DNA of 64,000 bases from Pyropia yezoensis. Lineage: Eukaryota; Rhodophyta; Bangiophyceae; Bangiales; Bangiaceae. Position 1 is the first letter of the stretch. Each line of letters opens with the position of its first letter. The notes below the pieces were generated by a model, which saw only the letters and a program-made list of their open reading frames with translations, had not been told where the DNA came from and searched no databases. Below, in pieces: positions 39,014 to 55,100 of the stretch. The stretch spans positions 18,151,346 to 18,215,345 of the forward strand of contig CM020618.1 in assembly GCA_009829735.1 (NCBI GenBank), written 5' to 3'. The position numbers were made by a program, and so were the translations under genes.

Positions 39014-39482
39014 CTTCATATTGCAGTTTTCCGAATTTTGTCCCGTGTGTACAAGAGCAAGAGCTAGTGTACAAGAGCAAGGGCGAATCGCATGCTCGCA
39101 GCTGAGGGCTTACTAATGGCGTGCTGCAACACGTGTGTCGGAAGAACCTGATGATTGGCTATGGCCACAACTGCTCTCGCAACGAACGCTGGTTGGTCAA
39201 AACACTCTTGTTTTTTCATCGGATCTCGCCGGTTGGCCCTTTATCTCCAGTCATCTCTGTCAAGAACAGTCCGAAGCGCTCAGCCGGTGCTTGTTCTGCC
39301 CTCGAAGTGGTCAGAAATCCCGAGAGAACCCCCGATCACACTGTTCGTACAGTCTGTATTGGGTATTGTCAGACTGGATATTGTCACGTCCGTGACAATA
39401 CTCAGTCACGATCGATCGGCGATCATGGCCTTACAAAGGCCTCCACACTGCGATAAACGTCGATCGTTGCCAAAAATAGCAA

Positions 39483-41320
39483 TGAGGCACTTCCATGAAA
39501 TCACATCCTGTCACGCAAAGTCACAAATTCTTCTTGCAGCCTGGCCCCTCTCTTCGAGTCTTTGGCACCCCACTACCAACAGATCGGTGCATCCCCACGT
39601 GACAGGCGACACACCATCGTCTTCACCAGAGTGTGCGCTTTACGTTCATGTGTGGTTTCTAAGAAAAACATTGAAAACTGGCCACGTGGTGGTCTTGAGA
39701 GTGCATCATCCAATATACCTGCTTGCTCGTCGCTTGCTCTATGTACCCTCCACCACCAGGCACCTACGGACGGAGCTACGCCCCAAGGTACATCCCACAG
39801 ACCACCCTACGTCTACTGATGCATAAAACGTGATGAGTTTCTATGGTGTGCAGCCCAAGAGAGCGGTCTTTTTCACAAACTTGGTGCCAAATACAGCTAT
39901 TTCTGCCCCCCCCCCCCCCCACAGACTGGAGAAGGACAGCCGCCAGGCACTGGCATAGCCCATACGATAGCTGTGTGTCCCTGTGAGCCTTAGGGAGCAC
40001 GAAAGTCCCACTGCCGACATCTCAACATGGACCCAGGGCCGGGTTTTTGCTCAACGACGGACCTTTGTCCTAAAGCCTGTCGCTACAAAAACATAGTGCA
40101 CCCACACAGGGATGAGCGGCCCTCTCTGTTCCATGGTCTTCAGCAAGGACCCTGTACGGATCCTGGCCAAAAGAAGGGCGCTCAAAGTGTGTCTGGACCA
40201 TCATGTGGGGAGCTCTGTGCCAGAAGCTATCTGAGCTCTACGTGCTTCGCATATTTGCCATCAAGTCGTGCTTGTCTTGGTCATGGCTGTCCCGGAAAGA
40301 AACTCAGTGGCAACAGTGGGTTGACGCATATCAGTTCAACGTTTGTCGTACGTTCATAGAGCTGGTTAGTGAGGTGTGTCATGTACTTCGTTCAAGCTGC
40401 TGGACGATTCATCCACATCACGCAGTGACAGGATGATCCATACTTCTGTCGGCACAGAAACAGCTTAAAGAGACACAAAGACCTCTGACCATTCTATGAA
40501 GAAGAAAAAACGGCATCGCCGACTCGTCACAGAGACGCAAACGAGCTGGACCCGCTTGAAAAGCGAGCTCAGACAGCCTCCGGCGCCAAGCTCGCCACAT
40601 GATGGTCCAGACACGCTTTGAGCGCCCGTCTTTTGGCCAGGATCCGTACAGGGTCCTTGCTGAAGACCATGGAACAGAGAGGGCCGCTCATCCCTGTGTG
40701 GGTGCACTATGTTTTTGTAGCGACAGGCTTTAGGACAAAGGTCCGTCGTTGAGCAAAAACCCGGCCCTGGGTCCATGTTGAGATGTCGGCAGTGGGACTT
40801 TCGTGCTCCCTAAGGCTCACAGGGACACACAGCTATCGTATGGGCTATGCCAGTGCCTGGCGGCTGTCCTTCTCCAGTCTGTGGGGGGGGGGGGGGGCAG
40901 AAATAGCTGTATTTGGCACCAAGTTTGTGAAAAAGACCGCTCTCTTGGGCTGCACACCATAGAAACTCATCACGTTTTATGCATCAGTAGACGTAGGGTG
41001 GTCTGTGGGATGTACCTTGGGGCGTAGCTCCGTCCGTAGGTGCCTGGTGGTGGAGGGTACATAGAGCAAGCGACGAGCAAGCAGGTATATTGGATGATGC
41101 ACTCTCAAGACCACCACGTGGCCAGTTTTCAATGTTTTTCTTAGAAACCACACATGAACGTAAAGCGCACACTCTGGTGAAGACGATGGTGTGTCGCCTG
41201 TCACGTGGGGATGCACCGATCTGTTGGTAGTGGGGTGCCAAAGACTCGAAGAGAGGGGCCAGGCTGCAAGAAGAATTTGTGACTTTGCGTGACAGGATGT
41301 GATTTCATGGAAGTGCCTCA
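39483..41320. repeat. Giant inverted repeat: two 756-bp arms, 326-bp spacer
   Basis: The left arm 39483-40238 and right arm 40565-41320 are reverse complements of equal length. They are almost identical over the outer ~690 bp, including matching 15-nt C/G runs at 39906-39920 and 40883-40897. Differences concentrate in the inner ~60 bp near the spacer. A transcript would fold into a very long hairpin. No target duplication is visible at the outer ends. Weaker inverted similarity continues outward (GTACAGTC, GTATTGGG near 39350 and 41390). The arms contain short frames only. Candidates are a fold-back transposon, an inverted duplication, or a small-RNA-generating locus. Confidence 0.95.
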
Positions 41321-41413
41321 ATGGGGTGGGCAAGGTGTACAGTTGTGTCAGCCATGCCATGGGCCGTGACATTGCCCAATACTGACTGTACAAAAAGGAC
41401 CCTCATGCAGAGC

Positions 41414-41512
41414 AGTCATTGGCCAGAGATGCAGCATCTGAGTCATATCATTGGTCAAACACAGTTTGCTCTTGCTCTTGTCCACATGGGACAAAATTGG
41501 GAGAACTGCAAT
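41414..41512. repeat. Diverged dispersed repeat, inverted partner at 36594-36690
   Basis: Both copies share the pattern CATTGG(C/T)CAGAGATGCA, then about 20 nt later CATTGGTC, then CTT(G/A)(C/T)TCTTGTCC and AGAACTGC. By eye I estimate about 70% identity over about 95 bp. In one frame both encode SSHWxEM...IGQ, so a decayed coding element is possible. Confidence 0.5.
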
Positions 41513-53911: not shown

Positions 53912-55100
53912 CTAGAACATGGGAGGTACTCCCGGTCTGAGCAGCCCCAAGCGCTCGACTAGGGTGGTCCTAGTCGTCCGAATATGAGACCGCTCTCTGT
54001 CACGGCGCCGCCCACGCTGATCAGCGCAAACCAAATCGTTGGGCGCAAGTGACACATCACGCGCAATGCGATCGGTCCCATACGGAGAAACAGAACAATC
54101 TCTCGCACTCGCATGCCCGCGGCAGAAATTGTGCAAGCGAAAACAAGCACGGACCAGACTGGAACGCTTAGGAAAAGGAACACGAAGAAGTCGCCAAAAA
54201 ACACCCCAGCGCCAAGAAAGCATGCCAAAAGCCTGCTCGATATGGATGCGGCTGGACGAGTGATAGAAGTTGTAGCTGTCCTTCCAACGGTCCCCACGAC
54301 CACAGCCCGGCCACGGAACCGCCAGAACTTCACTCGCCACGTAGGCCTAATCGGCGACGATGCAGTGGCCATCCTCCACCATCGCTCGTGTCAGGACGTG
54401 CGTGGGGTCCAATATGGTGCGCCCCAGCACCGTGCAAGCAAACGCCGAGGAGTCATGGCTGGAGCCGGGGCTCATACAGCTCATCCAGCGAAACTTGTAG
54501 TCTGCGTCACAGACAGCTTGAGTGTTGAGGGAGTAAAATCCCTTCCGACAGTAGTAGTCTGCCACACACTGAACATCCTGGGCCAGGGGCTGCTCTTGCT
54601 GGATGGCCACACCGTCCAGCCCAACTACGTTGCCAAACGGCGAGCTGCGGCGGGATTAAAAGCCCTCCGCGTACCCCGACCGCCTCTGGCGACTCCCCAG
54701 CCCGAAGCCCGAAGTCAAAAGCCAGGGCAGGAGTGCCATTCACGGCATCCATAACCTCCCATAGGGCACGGTACATAGTTGCAGGGTGCACCCCAAAAGC
54801 AGCACAAATATCAATGGAGCTGCCCCCCCCGAGGTACCGCAACGCCATCCCGCTGCGGCACTCGGGGGACAGGCCTCGCCAAGGTAAACGGGGGCGGAGA
54901 AGCTCCACCAGATCCTCCACACTATCGATAGGCATACGCATAGCTCTGTCGAAAGAAGCTCCGTAACGCTCCTGGATATCCGCCACCGTCTTCGGGCTGG
55001 TGTAGTAGGTGGGCGTAGGTGAAGGGGTCTCCTGGTGAGGGGCTGTGGACAGCGGGGAGGAGGGGATAGTAGAGGAAAAAATTCCTCTATGGTAGTGCAT
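53912..55100 (-). pseudogene. PIF/Harbinger-type DDE transposase relic
   Basis: The N-terminal part (from ATG 55100) has the helical pre-catalytic domain (SVEDLVELLRPRLPW, LSPECRSGMALRYLGGG, FGVHPATMYRALWEVMDAVN). After a frame change near 54650-54680, the DDE_4 core follows: VVGLDGVAIQQEQP (first Asp), VCDADYKFRWMSCM (following strand), SPGSSHDSSAF (second Asp) and IHIEQAFGMLSWRWGVF (Glu). Lesions: the +/-1 shift, a TAA in the bridging frame, and a TAG replacing the usual Glu codon of the ADEAY motif at 54347-54349. The element moves by cut-and-paste; this copy cannot encode full transposase. No clear terminal inverted repeats were found. Confidence 0.85.

Follow-up and report, generated by a model that had tools for sequence, protein, structure and literature searches.

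The window, a stretch of 64,000 nucleotides of Pyropia yezoensis DNA (C1:18151346-18215345), contains at 39484-41319 a palindrome that is far beyond chance. Self-BLAST returned one inverted pair, 39483-40238 against 41320-40565, with 756 nt, nine mismatches, no gaps and an E value of 0.0, which bears out the original prediction of two equal, nearly identical 756-bp arms around a 326-bp spacer. The prediction that the differences are confined to the inner ~60 bp of the arms was also correct, as all nine mismatches fall at arm positions 693-747. A repeat search widened the arms to 759 nt (39480-40238 and 40565-41323), again with 326 nt in between. It had further been stated that no target duplication is visible; this was wrong, since the triplet AAT stands on either side, and it is this duplication that sets the bounds of the element used in Table 1. 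A C/G run is 15 nt long in either arm, as described, yet this agreement is not special: across 14 full copies in the genome, the run is equal between the arms in just six and off by one in eight. The longest stop-to-stop frame in the palindrome interior is 121 aa, so that no transposase gene was found there, and a search within the arms for a direct-repeat family (minimum length 30) found none. A transcript of the palindrome is predicted to be almost fully double-stranded, with 857 pairs and an MFE of -1751 kcal/mol.

Table 1. Features of the palindromic locus, in window coordinates.
Feature	Position	Strand	Remark
Complete palindromic non-autonomous element, 1836 bp	39484..41319		Ends GAGGCACTTCC...GGAAGTGCCTC, like other full copies
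Left target-site duplication, AAT	39481..39483		
Right target-site duplication, AAT	41320..41322		
Left arm (long terminal inverted repeat), 755 bp	39484..40238	+	
Right arm (long terminal inverted repeat), 755 bp	40565..41319	-	98.8% identical to left arm
Spacer/loop, 326 bp	40239..40564		Alignable among 14 full copies; no long open frame
Terminal 42-bp segment	39484..39525	+	40/42 match to transposase-coding element; likely transposase recognition end
Opposite-end 42-bp terminal segment	41278..41319	-	
Left part of ~200-bp MITE-like repeat, with flanking TA	39348..39480		28 uninterrupted copies span the junction
Right part of ~200-bp MITE-like repeat	41323..41391		

A whole-genome search (107.5 Mb in 11 contigs, of which the three large ones measure 43.6, 34.3 and 29.4 Mb) turned up no fewer than 14 full-length copies at 92-100% identity, counting the window copy, L001, and many partial ones besides. 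The copies occur on all three large contigs, and with 40 of 126 candidates scored their number is a lower bound. Of the 13 other full copies, nine match the window copy at 99.2-99.8% identity and the remaining four at 98.4, 97.2, 92.4 and 92.2%. The termini given in Table 1 recur throughout, with slight changes in L012 and L013, and all 14 full copies are flanked by perfect 3-bp duplications (AAT, AAT, ATA, ATC, ATT, ACT, TAT, ACG, TAT, ATA, ACT, ACA, AGA and TGA). The locus had been said not to look like a standard transposon, and the finding named as making it an ordinary fold-back transposon was a large number of dispersed copies with evident target duplications. Such copies are what the proposed search for other copies returned, and the former statement is thus mistaken.

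Among the 14 further loci (L015-L028), matching 3-bp duplications were seen at six, namely L015, L018, L020, L023 and the related-family loci L026 and L028. A single canonical end is present at each of L017, L019, L021 and L024, a looser match at L021 having unlike flanks, and no canonical end was found at L022 or L025. We considered L015, with its duplication CTT, as a 6.7-kb autonomous element and rejected it, since its right arm is broken by a 5.1-kb insert, seemingly with a retrotransposon frame. The shortened copy L016 (2001-3128) has one canonical end and an internal break starting GACCATC, both flush with AAT, and a cryptic end was possibly used there. L020 (2086-3376) and L023 (2166-3269) are missing either the loop or a portion of the centre and an arm, yet still have the duplication ATA, losses that fit the expectation from palindrome-centre revision. 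When the duplications of 19 family loci and of one split copy of a related element (L045/L044, below) were taken together, with L028 excluded, A or T occupied both the first and third positions (WNW) in 17 of 20 (P ~4e-9 against the 47% A/T content of the 20-bp flanks); adding L028 (CTT) makes it 17 of 21. TAA or TTA is found in none of the 21.

We then used the window flanks, joined with a single AAT, as the query for an empty site (genome-wide, 40 of 595 candidates scored). At least 28 sites are contiguous through the joint at 92-99% identity, a few of them in segmental duplicates and so not all independent, which places the palindrome within a dispersed repeat of ~200 bp; for the window copy alone, these uninterrupted copies provide paralogous empty sites. 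The host repeat is MITE-like, with the borders TA|CAGT...ACTG|TA read from its sequence, and is itself nested in a third repeat that is uninterrupted at no fewer than 10 places among the matches listed. An outer 45-bp inverted pair (39020-39064 and 41468-41512, 91%) is part of this third, older dispersed repeat. The window copy would thus have landed in a TA-flanked MITE-like repeat older than itself, which lies in turn within another repeat.

Orphan copies of the palindrome end led to a related element of ~2 kb whose first 42 bp match those of the palindrome at 40 of 42 positions. One copy of it, L046, has an uninterrupted 568-aa frame; its right end was searched for and not found. Another copy is seemingly split, with its halves (L045 and L044) on the same strand ~62 kb apart, one end in each and AAA at both flanks, and this spacing suggests that an LTR retrotransposon insertion is probably nested. 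The splitting sequence, within C3:10558239 to 10622502, is an apparent LTR retrotransposon with the 5-bp duplication AGCGG. The 568-aa protein matches NCBIfam IS630 (E 1.7e-9, 37.6 bits, below the curated equivalog cut-off of 100 bits) and, weakly, DDE_1 (E 0.00097, 19.2 bits, below the cut-off of 22), and no DDE_Tnp_4 match was obtained in this protein (P0001) up to E 1. A candidate acidic triad picked by eye, D163/D286/D322, has 35 residues separating the last two and would make the enzyme a DD35D candidate. At least 80 stretches of the genome match the transposase at 34-100% identity (77 of 167 candidates scored). A single-sequence structure model had a pLDDT of 40.9, too low for use; a solved-structure search gave no meaningful match (best E 0.33), and tblastn against plasmids gave nothing at E 0.01. 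Transposases above cut-off are abundant in the genome for DDE_1 (pogo-type; at least 150 scored) and for DDE_Tnp_4 (Harbinger-type; at least 150 scored of 429 candidates). One PIF/Harbinger-type (DDE_Tnp_4) match with an internal stop lies in the window itself, on the minus strand at 54128-54619 (C1:18205473-18205964).

According to the accessible part of its description (PMC4455052), Repbase places elements in the same superfamily when their target-site duplications have equal length and their ends align at positions 1-11. Here, positions 1-11 match 11 of 11 at both ends and the split copy L045/L044 has the 3-bp duplication AAA, and the palindrome and the transposase element therefore belong together. 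Judged from these sequence matches, the ~2-kb element is the likely source of palindrome mobility in trans, although its transposase scores under the curated cut-offs. We hypothesize that its IS630-like transposase would bind the 42-bp ends and move the palindrome by cut and paste, with insertions going mostly into WNW sites.

To compare the arms, we counted non-consensus bases over 720 outer-arm columns in the 14 full copies. L013 has 37 such bases common to both arms versus seven in one arm, and L014 has 46 versus one. Relative to L001, both copies differ at 40-50 of the 720 outer-arm sites (about 6%) and at 42 of 365 (L013) and 39 of 364 (L014) loop sites (about 11%), while over the same 720 sites their own two arms differ at only seven (L013) and one (L014). 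In a tree, the two arms of each of L012, L013 and L014 group together with starred support. The tree is barely resolved among the youngest copies, where neither L001 nor L004 has its two arms grouped together, and in L011 (four and four) and L012 (nine and nine) shared and one-armed changes are even, so that the evidence for concerted change is weaker in these two. L012 provides evidence of another kind: its right arm has left-type bases at six inner columns that differ between the arms in the other 13 copies. These left-arm bases lie at alignment columns 733-753, the right-arm base being kept at 763, and this stretch is a conversion tract.

These patterns indicate that both arms change in concert, which gene conversion from one arm to the other accounts for most simply; alternatively, selection for pairing may keep the arms alike. 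Under conversion, a mutation in one arm would either spread to the other arm or be overwritten from it, through repair associated with a cruciform or hairpin or through gap repair that switches template between the arms. One feature runs against the expectation. With L001 as the reference, L011-L014 have accumulated changes faster in the loop than in the left arm (odds ratios 1.6-2.4; Fisher P of 0.004, 0.035, 0.041 and 0.09 in the four copies), which unbiased conversion does not predict. Since the unpaired loop in each copy is an internal control, the copy set offers a clean comparison for the speed of inverted-arm conversion.

Taken together, the dispersed copies, exact target-site duplications, empty sites, ends in common with a transposase element and concerted arms lead us to conclude with high confidence that the palindrome is a copy of a foldback-like non-autonomous DNA transposon made of two 755-bp arms and a 326-bp loop and having no gene. 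The two-ended related copy L027, with its unlike flanks (ACA and ATT), is at odds with this reading. That the palindrome might be a product of assembly is barely conceivable: long palindromes are difficult to assemble, but the 14 full copies have distinct flanks and a target-site duplication each, the partial copies have deletions of their own, and we rejected an artefact on these grounds. The arms could instead be alike simply because the palindrome was born recently, with no homogenisation. That nine of the other 13 full copies are nearly identical to the window copy does mean that youth contributes to arm identity, and to that extent the recency put forward in the original prediction stands, as does, from L012-L014, the homogenisation that it offered beside it. 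Recency alone is nevertheless very improbable, and we rejected it on the shared arm changes in L013 and L014, two copies that have diverged from L001 in arms and loop while their own arms stayed nearly identical. Moreover, L013 and L014 share their loop with L001, as well as most left/right differences seen at the inner arm edges, which argues that the palindrome formed once, before these copies split.

The third cause offered for the likeness of the arms was selection for a hairpin RNA, that is, a locus kept for its long double-stranded RNA and possibly producing siRNA. The predicted fold agrees with this, as does the fact that the arms remain alike while subfamilies diverge, and a transcript so nearly double-stranded could give rise to small RNAs, as could that of any long inverted repeat. 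Even so, we consider such a locus unlikely, given that the dispersed copies, duplications and empty sites mark a mobile element and that conversion, with a tract visible in L012, accounts for the similarity of the arms; a known RNA family was also rejected, as nothing in the window matched Rfam at gathering thresholds. Were the palindrome a mobile element of the PIF/Harbinger type, the 3-bp length of its duplications and the abundance of DDE_Tnp_4 transposases in the genome would be as expected. PIF/Harbinger elements have the target duplication TWA, which is absent from the 21 duplications. In addition, no GAGGCACTTCC-type end (up to two mismatches, first six bases restricted) lies within 1.5 kb on either side of the best 12 DDE_Tnp_4 loci, and the transposase that does lie between matching ends is the one lacking a DDE_Tnp_4 match. 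Neither the duplication nor the partner transposase fits, and we rejected this assignment as highly unlikely.

The anatomy of the foldback-like transposon resembles that of the Drosophila elements Tetris and Galileo/Kepler/Newton, which, in the portions of the literature available, likewise have terminal inverted repeats of great length and include copies without a transposase gene. Tetris has 8-10 bp target-site duplications and was placed in Mutator, its autonomous partner not being found, and two out of three complete Tetris copies were proposed to have undergone within-copy homogenisation of their terminal repeats, as stated in the accessible text of PMC4079207 and PMC2775673. Unlike Tetris and Galileo, the palindrome has a 3-bp duplication, arms without tandem repeats at the length tested, and ends in common with an IS630-like transposase element, not with Mutator or P. 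Arms of tandem repeats, as in classical FB and Galileo, are absent, and we therefore call the palindrome foldback-like by anatomy and not a classical FB element.

A possible link to the IS630-Tc1-mariner group runs through the candidate partner, whose transposase matches IS630 below the curated cut-off and, weakly, DDE_1, and may carry a DD35D triad. Some pogo elements in this group have very long terminal inverted repeats, of 392 bp or more (PMC7386202, available part). As far as the accessible text of PMC7386202 and PMC8533490 goes, members typically duplicate TA, with TAA or TAAA for Fot-type pogo and TATA for Sailor, whereas the palindrome family duplicates mostly WNW triplets. For an element paired with an IS630-type enzyme, 3-bp duplications that are mostly WNW are mildly unusual and count against the proposed partner. 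Within the group, Zator makes 3-bp duplications; a search of the openly accessible literature returned no paper on such duplications in Zator. The element class, a foldback-like non-autonomous transposon, is a known one, and the family itself may possibly have been described before, in subscription literature or in Repbase. What looked like a strange palindrome belongs to a real transposon family that can be explained and for which there is a candidate enzyme; it looks unusual but is essentially an ordinary transposon.

Three related palindromic families are 72-73% identical to the window family where they align, and within each the arms are 99.0, 99.5 and 99.7% identical. Their loops cannot be aligned to that of the window family, so these palindromes may have formed independently. 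Tentatively, and with less than even confidence, we hypothesize that a red-algal IS630-like lineage, a distinct branch or superfamily of IS630-Tc1-mariner with 3-bp, mostly WNW duplications, repeatedly spawned gene-less palindromes whose ~700-bp arms would be kept at ~99% identity through continuous conversion of one arm by the other, even as the families diverged by 26-30%. If this is true, the red-algal palindromic elements would be a natural system for measuring conversion within palindromes. The spacers between the arms in L026-L028 contain no long open frame, the longest being 191 aa. At L028 (2607-5317), the related-family element measures 2711 bp, is flanked by CTT and has 99.7%-identical arms that stop short of its right end.
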